Shown here piece by piece: positions 16,696-63,042 of a stretch of 64,000 bases of DNA (its first letter is position 1; each line of letters opens with the position of its first letter). The DNA is taken from positions 4,332,501 to 4,396,500 of the forward strand of contig NZ_CP077683.1 of NCBI RefSeq assembly GCF_019063845.1, in the 5' to 3' direction. The DNA is from Geomonas subterranea. Lineage in GTDB: Bacteria > Desulfobacterota > Desulfuromonadia > Geobacterales > Geobacteraceae. The notes beneath the pieces are model-generated. The model was not told the DNA's origin, ran no database searches, and saw nothing but the letters and a program-made list of their open reading frames with translations. The translations under genes and the position numbers were made by a program.

Positions 16696-17172
16696 ATGGC
16701 TGAACAAGGTGATGTCTGTTACACATTTGAAGCAGCGATCGAAATGGCCGCCCAGATGGAAAACGAGGGCTTCCGCGCATATCTTGCCGCGCTCCGCATC
16801 GTTAAAGACAAGGCCGCCCGTCAGATCATCAAGGAAGCGGCTTTCGACGAACTGGAGCACAAGCACCAGTTGGAGAAGGCGCTGGTCGAAGGGGAGATGA
16901 AGGGGGGAGAGGGGCTGCACCAGCCGGTTCCCACCATGAACCTCGACTACGTCCTGCCGAAAAGGGAGCTCCGCCCCGATTCGACCGCACGTGATGCAAT
17001 GGCGTATGCCATCCACCTCGAGAAGGGATCCATCGACTTCTACGACCGGATGTCCCGCGGCTGCGAGGGCGCTCCCATGGCAGTCCTGTTCAAGAAGATG
17101 CTGGCGGACGAGTCCCGTCACCTCCAGGAACTGGAAGACCTTTACGAGCAGCACTTCATGACGGAGAACTAG
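16696..17172 (+). CDS. Ferritin-like diiron protein (rubrerythrin-related)
   Basis: A 158-residue four-helix-bundle protein with no C-terminal rubredoxin domain. Diiron ligands can be recognised as Glu in the first helix (MENEGFRAY), the ExxH in DELEHKH (about 52-58), Glu in HLEKGSIDFY (about 107-116) and the ExxH in DESRHLQ (about 139-145). Such proteins reduce peroxide or store iron in anaerobes. The gene is preceded by GAGGAGACCTGCC and followed by a strong terminator, as a single-gene unit. Confidence 0.85.
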   Translation: MAEQGDVCYTFEAAIEMAAQMENEGFRAYLAALRIVKDKAARQIIKEAAFDELEHKHQLEKALVEGEMKGGEGLHQPVPTMNLDYVLPKRELRPDSTARDAMAYAIHLEKGSIDFYDRMSRGCEGAPMAVLFKKMLADESRHLQELEDLYEQHFMTEN

Positions 17173-17261: not shown

Positions 17262-17714
17262 CTAGAGGATCTCGACCAGTTTGAGGTCGAAGTTGAGTGC
17301 CTGGCCTGCAAGCGGGTGGTTGGCGTCGATGGTGATGGTTTCGTCGGTCACCTCGGTAACCATCACGTTGAAGACCTGGCCGTCTTCCTGGGTCACTTCC
17401 AACTGCTGCCCCACTTCCGGCTTCATCTCAGCAGGAAGATCGCCGCGCGGCACCACCGCCACCATCTCTTCCATTCTTTCGCCATAGGCCTCGTCCACCG
17501 GGATGTGGATGGTCTTGGAATCGCCGACGGAAAGCCCCTTCACACCCGCGTCGAAACCAGGGATGACCTGGCCGGAACCGATGACGAATTCCAGCGGACC
17601 GTGGCCGCAGCCGCAATCGTCCTCGCCGCACTCGGAAGAGTCGAACACGGTGCCGTCGTCCAGTCGCCCTGTATAATGAACCTTTACGCGGTCCCCGTCT
17701 TTAGCTTGTGCCAT
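17262..17714 (-). CDS. FKBP-type peptidyl-prolyl isomerase, SlyD-like
   Basis: A 150-residue cytosolic PPIase/chaperone. The start is the ATG behind GAGGTGAATAAC; that GTG, in frame, is part of the ribosome-binding site. FKBP blocks are VHYTGRLDDGTVFDSSE, VIGSGQVIPGFDAGVKGL and VPVDEAYGE-like HIPVDEAYGE. The insert-in-flap region (about 70-120) is of SlyD type, and it ends with ANHPLAGQALNFDL, typical of SlyD. Unusually, a short Cys/His cluster (CGEDDCGCGHG, about 29-39) sits in the first loop instead of the usual C-terminal His-rich tail, suggesting metal binding there. Confidence 0.9.
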   Translation of the reverse strand: MAQAKDGDRVKVHYTGRLDDGTVFDSSECGEDDCGCGHGPLEFVIGSGQVIPGFDAGVKGLSVGDSKTIHIPVDEAYGERMEEMVAVVPRGDLPAEMKPEVGQQLEVTQEDGQVFNVMVTEVTDETITIDANHPLAGQALNFDLKLVEIL

Positions 17715-17900
17715 GTTATTCACCTCGCATTAGTTTTTGGGTATAAGCTCCAGAGGTTACCAGATGGGCAGAAGATAATCCACCGTAAATTGCGCATGTC
17801 TTCTGCGCCACTCCTCTCGTGCCGTCCTTTCGGGTCCCGGCCTAATTTATCTTTTGTCAAATCCATCACGGAAATGGTATGTATCTTCCCTGGGGGATTC

Positions 17901-18422
17901 ATGCAAACGAAGAACAGGGCTATGCTTTTCAACGGCCTCGTGGTCGGCATCGAGCAGATGGACGTGCTCATCGGCGATCAGGGGTGGTACACCTACCAGG
18001 TCGTCCGTCATCCCGGCGGTGCCGGCGTCCTCGCGCTGCACGATGACGGCTGCGTAACGCTGATCCGGCAACTGCGCCCCGCGGTGGACGATTTCCTGCT
18101 GGAAATTCCGGCGGGACGGCTCGCTCCCGGGGAGGACCCGCACCTGTGCGCTGCCCGCGAGTTGATGGAGGAGACCGGGCTGGTGGCGCGCAAGATCGTT
18201 TCCCTCGGAGTCGTTCATCCCTCACCCGGCGTCTTCGACGAGGTGGTGCATCTCTATCTCGCCACCGGTCTCTCTCAGGGAGAGGCCGCACCGGAGGCGT
18301 ACGAGGAGATTTCCTGTCAGAAACTACCGTTTGACCAGGCGCTGGCGATGGCGGCCGACGGCAGCATCACCGACGGCAAGACCATCGTCGCCCTTCTTCG
18401 CGCCCAGAGGCACCTGTCATGA
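17901..18422 (+). CDS. Nudix hydrolase, ADP-ribose pyrophosphatase-like
   Basis: A 173-residue protein. The Nudix box is intact: G(x5)E(x7)REUxEExGU as GRLAPGEDPHLCAARELMEE followed by TGLV (about residues 74-97). The N-terminal beta strands and length match ADP-ribose/sugar-nucleotide diphosphatases. I start it at the ATG behind GGGGG. The much longer open frame upstream is antisense to the PPIase. It overlaps the next gene by 4 bp (ATGA), so translation is coupled. Confidence 0.88.
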   Translation: MQTKNRAMLFNGLVVGIEQMDVLIGDQGWYTYQVVRHPGGAGVLALHDDGCVTLIRQLRPAVDDFLLEIPAGRLAPGEDPHLCAARELMEETGLVARKIVSLGVVHPSPGVFDEVVHLYLATGLSQGEAAPEAYEEISCQKLPFDQALAMAADGSITDGKTIVALLRAQRHLS

Positions 18423-19318
18423 TACTCACCGCACGGATAGACGCTGAACAGTCCGGATTGAGACTGGACGACGCAGCCAAGGCGCTGTTCCCCCAACTCT
18501 CCAAGGGGGAGATCCGCCGGGTGATCGATTGGGGCGGCTGCAACATCAACCAGGTGTTGGTCAGGGTGGCGTCGCGCCAGGTGAAGGAAGGTGATGAGGT
18601 CGCACTGGGGCTGATGGAGGCGGAGCGCTGCGTCGAGCTGGTGTACCAGAAGCACGAGCTCCTGTACGAGGACAAGGATTTCCTGGCCGTGTACAAGGCG
18701 GTCGGCGTCAACAGCCAGCGCACCCCGTACCAGTTGAAGGGGACCGTCGAGTACGCCGTGGAGTGTTACATGAAGAGCATCGGGCTGCGGGATCCCTCCC
18801 GCGTGGTGCATCGTCTGGACCGCGGCACCAGCGGCGTGATGTTCTTCCCCAAGCACAAGCAGGCGGCGACGCTGATCTCGAACCTCCTCAAGGAGGGGAA
18901 GGTGCAGAAGACCTACTGGGCGCTGGTGTCGGGTTCGCCGGACCAGCAGAGCTGGAAGGTGGATGCGCCGCTGGACCGGGTCAACAAGTTCCGTTATGGC
19001 GTGTCGCACCGGGGGAAACCTGCGCGCACCGTGTTCAACGTCCTTGGTGAAGGGCGCGGGGTGACCGCCATCGAGGCGAAGCCGCTCACCGGGCGCACTC
19101 ACCAGATCCGCGTGCACCTGGCCCACTCCGGCTTTCCCATCATAGGCGACGAGAGCTACGGCGGCATACCCGCCAGCAGGATGATGCTGCACTGCCGGGC
19201 CATGCGCTTTACCGGGCCGCGCGGCAAGGTGATCGAGGCGGTGGCGCCGCTCGACGCGGATTTCCTGGCGGCCGCGCCGGAAGGGGCGTTCGAGGAGCGG
19301 GAGCAGCCGGCGCAATAA
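18419..19318 (+). CDS. RluA-family pseudouridine synthase
   Basis: A 299-residue RNA-modifying enzyme. N-terminal S4 domain about 13-75, then the catalytic core with HRLDRGTSGVM (about 137-147), whose Asp is the nucleophile. KPLTGRTHQIRVHL (about 221-234) and a terminal GDESYGG are the other family motifs. It isomerises uridine in 23S rRNA or tRNA; the exact site cannot be read. Translationally coupled to the Nudix gene. Confidence 0.9.
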   Translation: MILTARIDAEQSGLRLDDAAKALFPQLSKGEIRRVIDWGGCNINQVLVRVASRQVKEGDEVALGLMEAERCVELVYQKHELLYEDKDFLAVYKAVGVNSQRTPYQLKGTVEYAVECYMKSIGLRDPSRVVHRLDRGTSGVMFFPKHKQAATLISNLLKEGKVQKTYWALVSGSPDQQSWKVDAPLDRVNKFRYGVSHRGKPARTVFNVLGEGRGVTAIEAKPLTGRTHQIRVHLAHSGFPIIGDESYGGIPASRMMLHCRAMRFTGPRGKVIEAVAPLDADFLAAAPEGAFEEREQPAQ

Positions 19319-19352
19319 CCTCTTGTTTTACAGTGCTGCCGGGGCTCAACGC

Positions 19353-19459
19353 TGTAGGGGCAAATAATATTTGCCCAGTCGTGGGTGCCCCGATCAACGT
19401 GAATGGCGAGAGAAGATAAGGTGTGATGCAGGCGGGCGAATGATTATTCGCCCCTACAG
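19353..19459. repeat. GTAGGGGCGAATAAT-type palindromic repeat pair (REP/MITE-like)
   Basis: A left arm TGTAGGGGCAAATAATATTT GCCC and a right arm GGGCGAATGATTATTCGCCC CTACA, each self-complementary, surround an unconserved centre. The outer ends form TGTAGGGGC/GCCCCTACA. Seven other loci in the window carry the same element. Confidence 0.85.
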
Positions 19460-19502
19460 AAGCGTTAAGGTTATGCGAAGGAATATATAAGGGAGGGTAT
19501 CT

Positions 19503-20027
19503 ATGAAGAAGACTTTGTTGTTGGCGCTGATTCCGGTGGTTTTGCTGGTGGCGGGAGCCCTGGCGGTCTGGGGTGACGAGCAGCAAGCGGTTAAACCGGG
19601 GTGCGGCAACTGCGCCAAGATGCAGCAGGTGCAGCAGCAGGCGCCTTGCGCCAACTGCCCCAAGGCGGCAGCCATCGAGCAGGGGGCCGCTCCGTGCGCC
19701 AACTGCCCGAAAAAGGATCCCGCCGCCCAGGCCAATTGCGAAAAATGCGTAAAGGGTGCTGCCGCGCCGTGTGACAACTGCCCGAAAGGGGCCGCTGCGC
19801 AGGCAGGGTGTGACAAGTGTGCCAAGGGGGCTGCCGCTAAGCCTGCCTGTGACAAGTGCGCCAAGGGAGCGGCCGTACAGCCTGCCTGCGACAAGTGCCA
19901 GAAGCTGAAAGGGGCAGAGGCTGCTCCGGCAGCCGGCTGCGCCAAGTGCGCCAAGCTGCAGCAGGACCAGCAGCCCGCGGACCAGCCGGTGCAGAAAGGG
20001 TGCTGCAACAAACAGAAGGCCCTGTAA
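19503..20027 (+). CDS. Secreted CxxCxK-repeat cysteine-rich protein
   Basis: A 174-residue protein. Residues 1-22 are a signal peptide or anchor. The mature part carries nine CxxCxK motifs (CGNCAK, CANCPK twice, CEKCVK, CDNCPK, CDKCAK twice, CDKCQK, CAKCAK) spaced by Ala/Gln/Pro-rich linkers, and ends with GCCNKQ. There are no CxxCH motifs, so it is not a cytochrome. Twenty Cys and many Lys in an exported protein suggest metal (zinc, copper, iron or mercury) binding or a disulfide-rich surface polymer. The repeats differ in their linkers, so this is not a simple recent tandem duplication. GGGAGGGTATCT precedes the ATG. A terminator follows. I do not recognise a named family. Confidence 0.85.
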   Translation: MKKTLLLALIPVVLLVAGALAVWGDEQQAVKPGCGNCAKMQQVQQQAPCANCPKAAAIEQGAAPCANCPKKDPAAQANCEKCVKGAAAPCDNCPKGAAAQAGCDKCAKGAAAKPACDKCAKGAAVQPACDKCQKLKGAEAAPAAGCAKCAKLQQDQQPADQPVQKGCCNKQKAL

Positions 20028-20066: not shown

Positions 20067-20097
20067 AAGGGGACTGGCTCCAGGAGCCAGTCCCCTT
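20067..20097 (+). terminator. Terminator of the CxxCxK gene
   Basis: Stem AAGGGGACTGGCTCC/GGAGCCAGTCCCCTT with a 2-nt loop, then TGTTT. The core GGGGACTGGCTCC/GGAGCCAGTCCCC matches one strand of the repeat at 51212-51317. Confidence 0.8.
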
Positions 20098-20220: not shown

Positions 20221-20898
20221 TTATGAAAGAGGCCACCTGCTGGTGTGCGGATCGAAACCTTGTTCCGCAGCCCCGGGATTGTCGACCAGGAGCGCACGGA
20301 CTGGTGCCCCGTCTCCATCCTTCAGCTTCAACGGCAGGCAGATCAGCTGGTAGTCCCCCGCCGCGACCCCTGTTAGGTTCACCCCCTCGATCACCGGGAT
20401 CCCCCCGTTCAGAAGAATGCGGTGCACCTCGCCATCCCCGTCCATCGGCTCCACCGACAGGTAATCGACCGCCACCAGCTTCACCTTCAAGTGGTGCAGG
20501 TAGTGCGCCCCCTCCACCGTCAGCGCGGCGAAATCGGTGCGAAACTCCCGCTCGCTCCAGAACTCCGAGTTGCCGGTCTTGATCAGAAGCCTTTCCACTC
20601 CCTTCAGCTGCAGCGGCTCCAGTTCGTTCCGCCCGATATTCCTGGCGTGGGGGATCTCAACAACCCGTGCCTGGCCGATGAGGAGGTCGAGCGGAATCTC
20701 GTCAACCGTGATGCCGGCGTCGTTGAAATGGCGGGGGGGATCGATATGGGTACCGGAGTGGCTGCCGAGTGTGATGCGGGAAAGGTTGGCGGCGTCCCCC
20801 TTGGCGATACGGTGCCAGGGCTCGACGGTGACGGAAGGGTCCCCCGGGTAGGAGGGGAGATCGGGTGACAGCGCGACAGTGATGTCGTGGATTCTCAT
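20221..20898 (-). CDS. Cyclase-family metal hydrolase (kynurenine formamidase-like)
   Basis: A 225-residue protein of the cyclase/KynB superfamily. The zinc-binding motif HSGTHIDPPRHF (about 47-58) is intact, and the N-terminus MRIHDITVALSPDLPSYPGDP is typical. Family members hydrolyse N-formylkynurenine or other amides. No tryptophan-degradation genes are nearby, so the substrate is open. GGGAGGTGCCCC precedes the ATG. Confidence 0.85.
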   Translation of the reverse strand: MRIHDITVALSPDLPSYPGDPSVTVEPWHRIAKGDAANLSRITLGSHSGTHIDPPRHFNDAGITVDEIPLDLLIGQARVVEIPHARNIGRNELEPLQLKGVERLLIKTGNSEFWSEREFRTDFAALTVEGAHYLHHLKVKLVAVDYLSVEPMDGDGEVHRILLNGGIPVIEGVNLTGVAAGDYQLICLPLKLKDGDGAPVRALLVDNPGAAEQGFDPHTSRWPLS

Positions 20899-21097: not shown

Positions 21098-21985
21098 TTA
21101 GGTCTTGGCGGAGTCTACTTCCGCGATCAGCCGCTCCAGGTCGGCTTCGCTGAAGCGGTAACGCTCGCCGCAGAATTCACAGGTGACCTCTGCGCCGTGC
21201 TGCTCCTTGAGCAGGGAGGTGAGTTCCTTCTTCCCCATCGAGATCAGCACCCGCTCAATACGCTCCCTGCTGCAACTGCAGGCGAAGGCGATGGTGCGCT
21301 TCTCCAACACGTCGTACTCCATTTCCGACAGGAGCATCGCCATGATCTCCTCCGGCGTCTTCCCCCCGCGCAGCAACTCGCTCAAAGGGGGGAGCTTCTC
21401 GATCCGGTCCATCAAACCCTCGACCACCAGGGGATCGATGGGAGGTACGGCCTGGATCAGGAAGCCGCCGCATGCGGTGACCTGGCCGTCCTGTTCGATG
21501 AACTCGGCAATCCCGACTGCCGACGGGATCTGCTCTGACTCCACCAGGTACAGGGCGAGATCCTCGGCGATGCCGCTGGTGTAAAGCTGAACGGTGCCAC
21601 GGTATGGCTCTTTGAGCCCCAGGTCCTTGGCGACGGTGAGAAAACCAGCGCGTCCCAGGGCATTGGGGACGTCGAGGGCACCATCGGAACGAAGCAGGTG
21701 CACCTGCGGGTCGCCCACGTAACCACGCACGCTGCCGTCGCTGTCGGCCTCGATCACGATCTTCTTCAGCGGGCCGTTCCCCTCGAAACGCAGCGCCACC
21801 CGCTGGCCGGTCTTCAGCATGGCTCCCATGAGTGCCCCGGCGGTTATCGAGCGTCCCAGCGCCGCGGTGGCTGTCGGGAGTGTGCCGTGGCGCCGGCAAA
21901 TCTCGCTGACGGTGCCTGTGGTGACGCAGGCAAGTGCCCTCACGCTCCCCGACTTGGCTATGGCGCGCACCAGATAATCTGTCAT
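21098..21985 (-). CDS. hslO: Redox-regulated chaperone Hsp33
   Basis: Cytosolic holdase of 295 residues, activated by oxidation. The C-terminal zinc switch is intact: C236-S-C238 and C269-E-F-C272. The N-terminal core is typical, with [21 protein letters not shown] (about 38-58) at its centre. It overlaps the upstream hypothetical gene by 4 bp, so the two are coupled. Confidence 0.95.
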
Positions 21986-25687: not shown

Positions 25688-25737
25688 CCGTCCACCCGTC
25701 CAACCGTCCAACCGTCCAACCGTCCAACCGTCCAACC
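25688..25737. repeat. 8-bp tandem repeat
   Basis: Five perfect consecutive copies of CGTCCAAC preceded by degenerate ones, directly abutting the next palindromic repeat. Confidence 0.85.
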
Positions 25738-25836
25738 GTAGGGGCGAATAATCATTCTCCCTGATCCTTCATCTTGTATAGAGGTAGCGTGTCCTTCATG
25801 CAGCGGCGCTGGGCGAATAATTATTCGCCCCTACAG
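25738..25836. repeat. GTAGGGGCGAATAAT-type palindromic repeat pair
   Basis: Left arm GTAGGGGCGAATAATCATTC and right arm GGGCGAATAATTATTCGCCC CTACAG around a 50-bp centre. Same family as the element at 19353. Confidence 0.85.
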
Positions 25837-33498: not shown

Positions 33499-33610
33499 TG
33501 TAGGGGCAAATAATTATTTGCCCAGCTGGCGGCGCCTCAGTCAGCGCCGACGGCGAGAGAGACCGGGGTGGCAGATGCGGCGACGGGCGAATGATTATTC
33601 GCCCCTACAG
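33499..33610. repeat. GTAGGGGCGAATAAT-type palindromic repeat pair
   Basis: Left arm TGTAGGGGCAAATAATTATT TGCCC, right arm GGGCGAATGATTATTCGCCC CTACAG. A half copy of the CGCAAAG family follows at 33656-33692. Confidence 0.85.
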
Positions 33611-34549: not shown

Positions 34550-34663
34550 TGTAGGGGCGAATAATCATTCGCCCTGCACAGGTGCCCTCAGGTTAAATGA
34601 GGCTTCGCGCAGCGGCGTCGCTGACGTCGACCGCGGCTGGGCGAATAATTATTCGCCCCTACA
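34550..34663. repeat. GTAGGGGCGAATAAT-type palindromic repeat pair
   Basis: Left arm TGTAGGGGCGAATAATCATT CGCCC and right arm GGGCGAATAATTATTCGCCC CTACAG. It is preceded by a short GGTTCTA tandem stretch (34504-34531). Confidence 0.85.
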
Positions 34664-39333: not shown

Positions 39334-39438
39334 TGTTGGGGCGAATAATGATTCGCCCGGTTTTCGCACGGCAGCGCAGTCGGCCGCAGCATCGCTTGGG
39401 GCACGCGCGGCTGGGCGAATGATTATTCGCCCCTACAG
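39334..39438. repeat. GTAGGGGCGAATAAT-type palindromic repeat pair
   Basis: Left arm TGTTGGGGCGAATAATGATT CGCCC, right arm GGGCGAATGATTATTCGCCC CTACAG. Followed by a GC-rich repeat copy. Confidence 0.8.
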
Positions 39439-44091: not shown

Positions 44092-44118
44092 CGTAGGGGC
44101 GAATAAATATTCGCCCTG
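44092..44118. repeat. Single-arm GTAGGGGCGAATAAT repeat between znuC and znuB
   Basis: CGTAGGGGCGAATAAATATT CGCCC, one palindromic arm only, with the opposite arm missing. A short GC-rich repeat fragment precedes it (44049-44082). Confidence 0.75.
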
Positions 44119-56175: not shown

Positions 56176-56200
56176 GGGCGAATGATTATTCGCCCCTACA
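56176..56200. repeat. Single-arm GTAGGGGCGAATAAT repeat
   Basis: GGGCGAATGATTATTCGCCC CTACA, right arm only, no partner arm nearby. Confidence 0.8.
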
Positions 56201-62307: not shown

Positions 62308-63042
62308 GTCCCCTCCTGTTTGAGCCCGGTGCCCTCTCCATACGGAGCGCACAAGAATTTGTAGGGGCGAATAATCATTCGCTCTTCTTTGGCATCTCCG
62401 CCCTTTTTGCCATGGTCAGCGGCGAGGCACCGGCCGCTGGGCAAATGTTTATTTGCCCCTACAGGGGGGCCGCCATGTTGTGTAGGGGCGAATAATCATT
62501 CGCCCTCTTTGGCCTCTTCGACCCTTTTGCCATCGTCAGCGGCAAGGCACCGTCCGCTGGGCAAATATTTATTTGCCCCTACAGGGGCCCCGCCATGTCC
62601 TGTAGGGGCGAATAATCATTCGCCCTCTTTGGCCTCTTCGACCCTTTTGCCATGGTCAGCGGCGAGGCACCGTCCGCTGGGCAAATATTTATTTGCCCCT
62701 ACAGAGGCCCCGCCATGTTGTGTAGGGGCGAATAATCATTCGCCCTCTTTGGCCTCTCCGACCCTTTTGCCATTATCAGCGGCGAGGCACCGACCGCTGG
62801 GCAAATATTTATTTGCCCCTACGGTGGCCGGCCATGTCCTGTAGGGGCGAATAATAATTCGCCCTGTCCTTCGCAGCGTTGCTGGCACCCCGCCGCAAGG
62901 GGGAGGGGAGCTGGCGGAGTTGGAGTGTAATATTCCTAACCGGGGATTTCAAGCATCTTCATGCAGTTGCGGCGCTTTTGCGTGACAAGAGGAGAGCCGT
63001 TCTGCTAGAACGATAGCTGGTGTGTAAAGGAGCACGAGAGCC
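62308..63042. other. Intergenic region with repeat array
   Basis: About 735 bp without a supported gene. The larger part is a tandem palindromic array; the last 170 bp hold a GC-rich repeat fragment (62886-62913) and presumably the hemW promoter. An open frame through the array is repeat-derived and rejected. Confidence 0.75.
62360..62866. repeat. Tandem array of about 120-bp palindromic units
   Basis: Four consecutive units, each with a left arm GTAGGGGCGAATAATCATTC GCCC, a centre (CTTTGGC...CCTTTTGCCAT.GTCAGCGG..AGGCACCG) and a right arm GGGCAAATATTTATTTGCCC CTACAG. Left arms start near 62361, 62481, 62601 and 62721, a 120-bp period. A fifth left arm alone ends the array (62840-62866). The units differ at few positions, so amplification is recent. 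Confidence 0.9.

Follow-up and report, generated by a model that had tools for sequence, protein, structure and literature searches.

A predicted exported, cysteine- and lysine-rich protein of Geomonas with probable metallothionein-like function

In a 64,000-nucleotide window of the Geomonas subterranea genome (4.99 Mb, one contig), the gene at positions 19503–20027 encodes a 174-residue, apparently exported Cys/Lys-rich protein. We predict, with somewhat better than even confidence, that it acts as an exported metallothionein-like metal-thiolate buffer that is unfolded without metal, a reading drawn from its composition, its conservation and the drift of its Cys pattern among relatives. The lineage-restricted, predicted exported family appears to be new; the metallothionein-like kind of thiol chain is known.

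The gene, its signal-like start and its cysteine pairs

The coding sequence (19503–20027, + strand) is an open frame with an ATG start, and it is supported by dN/dS and by a genus-wide profile match. It is preceded by a Shine-Dalgarno-like GGGAGG (19491–19496, +), and GGAGG-type sites were also found 5' of the orthologs inspected. Residues 1–24 (19503–19574, +) form a putative Sec signal peptide, with MKK at the NH2-terminus, a hydrophobic core, and VWG, after which cleavage is predicted, before an acidic/amide stretch (DEQ). Judged by eye, the cleavage context VWG of the window protein is VWA in divergent orthologs, and neither V22 nor W23 varies among the 15 rows of the ortholog alignment A1. 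The start of the protein contains no twin-arginine, and there is no lipobox because no Cys precedes residue 34. These features suggest Sec export followed by removal of the signal.

The mature part (residues 25–174, 150 amino acids) contains 20 Cys, 21 Lys, 0 His and 0 aromatic residues. All 20 Cys are paired, the ten pairs consisting of nine CxxC and one CC. The CxxC pairs belong to nine CxxCxK motifs, all on the + strand: CGNCAK (19602–19619), CANCPK (19647–19664), CANCPK (19695–19712), CEKCVK (19737–19754), CDNCPK (19770–19787), CDKCAK (19809–19826), CDKCAK (19848–19865), CDKCQK (19887–19904) and CAKCAK (19938–19955). Both Cys and the final Lys of the ninth motif are invariant in alignment A1, as are C167, C168 and K170 of the COOH-terminal CCNK (20001–20012, +), in 15 of 15 rows. 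An earlier note on this DNA had described nine CxxCxK repeats and no CxxCH, and both counts were confirmed; in 20,000 shuffles of the mature residues, CxxCxK occurred 0.35 times on average and never more than five times, and the window protein has 0 CxxCH.

A symmetrical hairpin resembling an intrinsic terminator, with a 14-pair stem, is located at 20067–20097 and scores on both strands; by chance, the scan yields 1.3 such sites per shuffled kilobase. Its symmetry means that this element, placed 3' of the gene, could also serve the convergent cyclase gene. A scan for sigma-70-like promoters of the gene returned 0 sites, and no conserved operator was readable because the upstream intergenic repeats differ between species.

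The window also contains a hairpin repeat, TGTAGGGGCGAATNATNATTCGCCC, with 19 matches at three or fewer mismatches versus 0 expected, located at 19352–19459, 25737–25835, 33499–33609, 34550–34663, 39334–39437, 44092–44116, 56176–56200 and 62360–62864. The copies often occur as inverted pairs with starts about 75 to 90 bases apart, a REPIN-like arrangement, and those at 62360–62864 form a near-tandem array with units of about 120 bases. One pair lies immediately 5' of the Cys-rich gene, where some other species carry a different repeat. A 185-residue antisense frame (19454–20011, −) over the gene is probably a by-product of codon composition.

Conservation, distribution and the rluA–cyclase locus

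Estimates of dN/dS (NG86) were 0.08 to 0.14 in all nine ortholog pairs computed, the pairs having been chosen among close relatives. The earlier note had left room for a frame that is not translated, and these values argue against it. As judged from such sequence comparisons, 19503–20027 is a real, translated and conserved gene. Five named relatives, Geomonas anaerohicana, paludis, azotofigens, propionica and diazotrophica, match most of the window protein. With this single protein as the query, relatives were found in 17 of 58 genomes, its own included. A profile of 15 orthologs taken from 17 genus members (A1) had matches in 21 of the 48 family genomes, namely all 19 examined genomes of the genus (own included), one of genus g7 and one of genus g10; when 141 genomes of the order were scanned, these 21 were again the ones matched. 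Profile A3, widened to 12 rows that include L052 to L055, matched 23 of 277 genomes of the class, with the two additional to those of A1 belonging to g10. It also matched five of 395 genomes drawn evenly from the phylum, but two of these matches (L073 and L074; E 1.9e-6 and 4.4e-6) were ordinary CxxCH cytochromes and were dropped; the profile thus reacts to such composition.

Among the 17 genus members, CxxCxK motifs number three to nine per protein, Lys occupies the second place after the second Cys in 111 of 118 CxxC pairs, and CxxC and this Lys are separated by Ala or Pro in 106 of the 118. Alignment A1, which is imperfect in the repeats, has 21 invariant mature columns, 11 of them Cys and 6 Lys. 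In a comparison of 21 proteins, including that of the window, CxxCH, the heme-attachment motif of multiheme c-type cytochromes, was absent from all 21, and mature aromatic residues numbered 0 to 1. Mature Cys counts were odd in five of the 21: 15 in L013, L016 and L055, 17 in L014, and 27 in L052.

The window protein gave 0 matches at E ≤ 1 in Pfam, NCBIfam and PHROGs. A PDB sequence search returned nothing at E ≤ 0.1, the best hits being two cytochrome c7 sequences at chance level (E 0.13 and 0.32), which we attribute to composition. A tblastn search of plasmids gave no match. In the open-licence literature searched, neither the motif string CXXCXK nor Geomonas together with cysteine-rich is mentioned. 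Within these databases and this literature, the proposal of an undescribed family is supported. The profile for bacterial metallothionein, PF02069, matched 0 of 48 family genomes and detected the positive control, Synechococcus elongatus, so that no standard metallothionein was seen to cover the role. Of nine loci from the genome scan, four in Selenomonas/Veillonellaceae (29 to 33% identity over 43 to 58 residues) were dropped; in the two that were translated (L032 and L033), no frame for an exported Cys-rich protein was listed where the match lies. A second match in the window's own genome (E 0.13, 31% over 84 residues in a 345-residue frame) was dropped as weak.

The g10 proteins L065, L066 (the same gene as L054) and L068 are short, signal-bearing and Cys-rich, with CANCP and CDCANC. 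Against A1, L054, L065 and L068 each scored higher than all 200 shuffled versions of their mature parts, but for full-length L068 the margin was slim: 17.7 bits, compared with 17.4 for the best-scoring combination of its signal with a shuffled mature part. The rluA and cyclase genes are not adjacent to the g10 genes; at L075 (3381–8115) the neighbour is a Cys/Met-metabolism PLP enzyme. A pyridine nucleotide-disulphide oxidoreductase gene, followed by one for a VTT-domain protein, also lies near the Cys-rich gene of L075. The g10 proteins are possibly distant relatives or convergent, and we kept them apart from the family defined by locus.

The upstream neighbour in the window encodes an RluA-type pseudouridine synthase (18419–19318, +; PF00849, E 7.2e-27) and the convergent downstream neighbour a member of the Cyclase family (20221–20898, −; PF04199, E 8.5e-22). 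Within 3 kb of the Cys-rich gene are also genes for a rubrerythrin/ferritin-like protein (16696–17172), an FKBP-type isomerase (17262–17723) and Hsp33 (21098–21985), other redox- or metal-linked proteins that are perhaps nearby by chance. Across the genus and g7, 20 loci were compared. The Cys-rich gene lies next to the cyclase gene in every one of them and next to an RluA-like gene in 19; the contig of the lone exception (L014) begins 46 bases upstream of the gene. The cyclase protein was then used as a query for further loci and found a match in 47 of 48 family genomes. Of the family genomes, 28 belong neither to the genus nor to g7, and the site beside the cyclase gene was read in 26 of these; the exceptions were G030, in which the cyclase had no match, and G069, in which it lies at the end of a contig.

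Three of these genomes carried Cys-rich proteins that the profiles had missed. Between rluA and the cyclase gene, G023 (g6) encodes a signal-bearing protein with 13 mature Cys, 14 Lys and 0 aromatics, its Cys arranged as CICESC and CTCGC, and G062 (g11) a signal-bearing protein with 12 Cys, 22 Lys, 0 aromatics and mixed CxC/CxxC; G033 (g11) has a smaller Cys-rich protein with 6 Cys at the site. No further low-aromatic, Cys-rich, signal-bearing candidate was found at the cyclase site in the other 23 of the 26, frames at L110 (19 aromatics) and L101 (antisense) having been set aside. G064 and G028 (g11) have no gene between rluA and the cyclase gene, the two matches being 29 and 77 bases apart; in G063 the gap is filled by the rest of rluA, and in G059 the matches lie 2457 bases apart with no such Cys-rich frame. 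In 19 of the 26 genomes no rluA match occurred in the stretch read beside the cyclase gene, and the locus is therefore arranged differently there. Within g11, the Cys-rich gene between rluA and the cyclase gene is present in L116 and L111 and absent from L112 and L117, a gain or a loss.

The family at the rluA–cyclase locus spans four genera (g1, g7, g6 and g11), and the window protein belongs to it by its position, its signal-like start and its clustered Cys with Lys. For the g6 and g11 proteins, homology to the window protein is suggested by position and composition, without a sequence match. Two g11 genomes lack the gene at an intact site and, within the reach of the profile, it was missed in most genomes of the order (matches in 21 of 141), so it appears dispensable over evolution. 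At the same locus, further Cys variants include CCxK in L017, L018, L053 and L055 and CDC/CxxC in L052. What is constant there is Cys, Lys, a signal-like start and a near absence of aromatics; what varies is the Cys spacing. Since same-site relatives rearrange their Cys, CxxCxK is a local form, one state among several, and its regular spacing is not what the wider family at this locus has conserved.

A predicted metal-thiolate buffer and its alternatives

Metallothioneins are characterized by paired Cys, Lys next to Cys, the absence of aromatics or a hydrophobic core, and a loosely arranged Cys spacing. The earlier judgement that the window protein is not of a familiar metallothionein design was thus too strong, given its paired Cys, its Lys beside Cys, its lack of aromatics and the rearranged spacing among its relatives. 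In the proposed mechanism, the mature chain, after Sec export and signal removal, would remain unfolded until metal arrives. Its Cys pairs would then wrap soft or borderline ions such as Cu(I), Zn, Cd, Hg and similar. A four-thiolate site would need two CxxC or CC pairs, so that the ten pairs might hold about five ions; alternatively, they might form a larger Cu(I)-thiolate cluster. Negative charge on the thiolate clusters would be offset by the Lys that lies two places past each pair. By taking up metal, the protein would act as a buffer or sink for it, either in the periplasm or extracellularly. Export, the free state of the thiols, the binding of metal, how many sites there are, which metal fills them and what the protein does are all predictions.

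Metal clusters fit better than a motif-specific cofactor with the retention of Cys and Lys content while their arrangement drifts. An AlphaFold model of the window protein, obtained with a 6-row alignment, had a mean pLDDT of 38.4 and a pTM of 0.16, with no confident fold; such an outcome would be expected for an unfolded thiol chain, although the 6-row alignment alone could also cause it. The Lys-rich, aromatic-poor composition is suggestive, not diagnostic. Against a metal buffer, no metal gene adjoins, the neighbours being genes for an RNA pseudouridine synthase and a cyclase, and no operator links the gene to metals; its apparent dispensability over evolution also counts against this reading. 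The argument from a reducing periplasm failed: VKOR had no match in the window's genome, yet a DsbB-like protein is present. This genome gave one DsbB-like match (E 1.8e-22), two DsbA-like matches (E 1.8e-7) and three DsbD_TM matches, and with the DsbB-like and DsbA-like proteins the exported CxxC pairs may be oxidised. EXAFS analysis is reported to have shown thiols in the G. sulfurreducens periplasm and a possible Hg-disulfide (PMC12915048), which makes free and oxidised states both plausible.

The Dsb matches bear on a different use of the same Cys, that of a disulfide/thiol redox protein, either cycling between dithiol and disulfide as an exported buffer of electrons or oxidants or forming intermolecular cross-links in a polymer of the envelope or matrix. 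We consider this unlikely, though the strongest of the rivals: every Cys of the window protein is paired and the differing motif number between species would be tolerable in a structural polymer, but rearranged CxC/CC patterns, and an odd number of mature Cys in five of the 21 proteins compared, are unsuited to a fixed redox dithiol, the strict Lys at +2 is left unexplained, and the window protein has neither a lipobox nor a Pfam domain. It is quite improbable that the protein is instead a specific metal carrier, passing metal to an exported enzyme or efflux system with no storage. The chemistry would be the same as for a metallothionein-like protein, and small residues after CxxC, here usually Ala or Pro, are typical of thiolate knuckle turns; a number of sites varying from three to nine within the genus is, however, unusual for a protein with a partner interface, and 19 of 20 loci share the same two non-metal neighbours.

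It is very improbable that the protein is a substrate for covalent modification, whether by non-canonical attachment of heme to CxxCxK or by a maturase that introduces Cys/Lys cross-links. NrfA has CxxCK heme sites, which offers a precedent, and the sole PDB matches, at chance level, were cytochromes c7. The motif here is CxxCxK and not CxxCK, however, relatives at the same locus lose it, CxxCH is missing throughout the 21 proteins, no maturase adjoins the gene, and the window protein lacks any His that could act as an axial ligand; heme attachment to it is unlikely. The low-complexity composition and the open antisense frame could be taken to indicate a chance or degenerate open frame with no functional protein, but the chance of this is minimal in view of the dN/dS values, the presence of the gene in every genus genome examined and the conserved locus.

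Returning to the metallothionein-like buffer, we put forward more tentatively, and at less than even probability, the broader idea that Geobacteraceae possess lineage-specific, Sec-exported metallothioneins, fast-evolving and expanding by repeats, which would provide a dedicated extracytoplasmic metal-thiolate pool and so help to set how much Hg(II), Cu or Cd is available at the envelope of these metal-respiring bacteria, some species of which methylate mercury.

Significance and relation to known systems

Thiols of the Geobacter envelope and periplasm have been quantified for their bearing on Hg(II) uptake, with the periplasm accounting for 27% of whole-cell thiols (PMC12915048). The part of that source considered here names no carrier protein of such kind, and its main text contains 0 occurrences of "cysteine-rich" and "metallothionein". 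In genera related to Geobacter, a dedicated exported thiol protein carrying 20 Cys would offer a specific candidate for the source of envelope thiols, one that could be removed by gene deletion. Confirmation would also make it a clear case of a bacterial protein of the metallothionein type that is exported and gains or loses sites along with its repeats.

Cytochrome c7 and multiheme cytochromes share with the window protein repeated CxxC with Lys nearby and export, the latter predicted in our case; they differ in that the window protein lacks CxxCH and His. The exported copper storage protein Csp1 has a Tat signal and a pre-folded four-helix bundle (PMC7558416). Many Cys would be common to both proteins, as would multi-metal storage and export, which are predictions for the window protein; this protein, in contrast, has no twin-arginine, and no confident fold was obtained for it with the 6-row AlphaFold alignment.

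By broad metallothionein criteria (Cys-rich, few aromatics, clustered Cys), the window protein qualifies, with 20 Cys in 150 mature residues and 0 aromatics. Eukaryotic metallothioneins have Lys beside Cys and no aromatics. They usually contain 20 Cys, and metallothionein folding is reported to follow the binding of Cu (PMC7558416). The window protein likewise has 20 Cys and differs from them in its signal-like start, its regular CxxCxK spacing and the lack of a Pfam or PDB match at E ≤ 0.1. With the bacterial metallothioneins (SmtA/BmtA, PF02069; MymT) it has in common many thiolate ligands, a small size, richness in Cys and a proposed metal-induced folding; it is larger than these proteins, however, and has a signal-like start, no His, a repeat architecture and no PF02069 match. 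Metallothioneins are described as cytosolic (PMC8790569), and PmtA of P. aeruginosa has no signal peptide yet was detected at the surface (PMC11237414). If exported, as suggested by a start that is signal-like by eye and conserved in A1, the window protein departs from the usual cytosolic type. It appears to lie outside every described family searched, yet it resembles a metallothionein in its predicted action.
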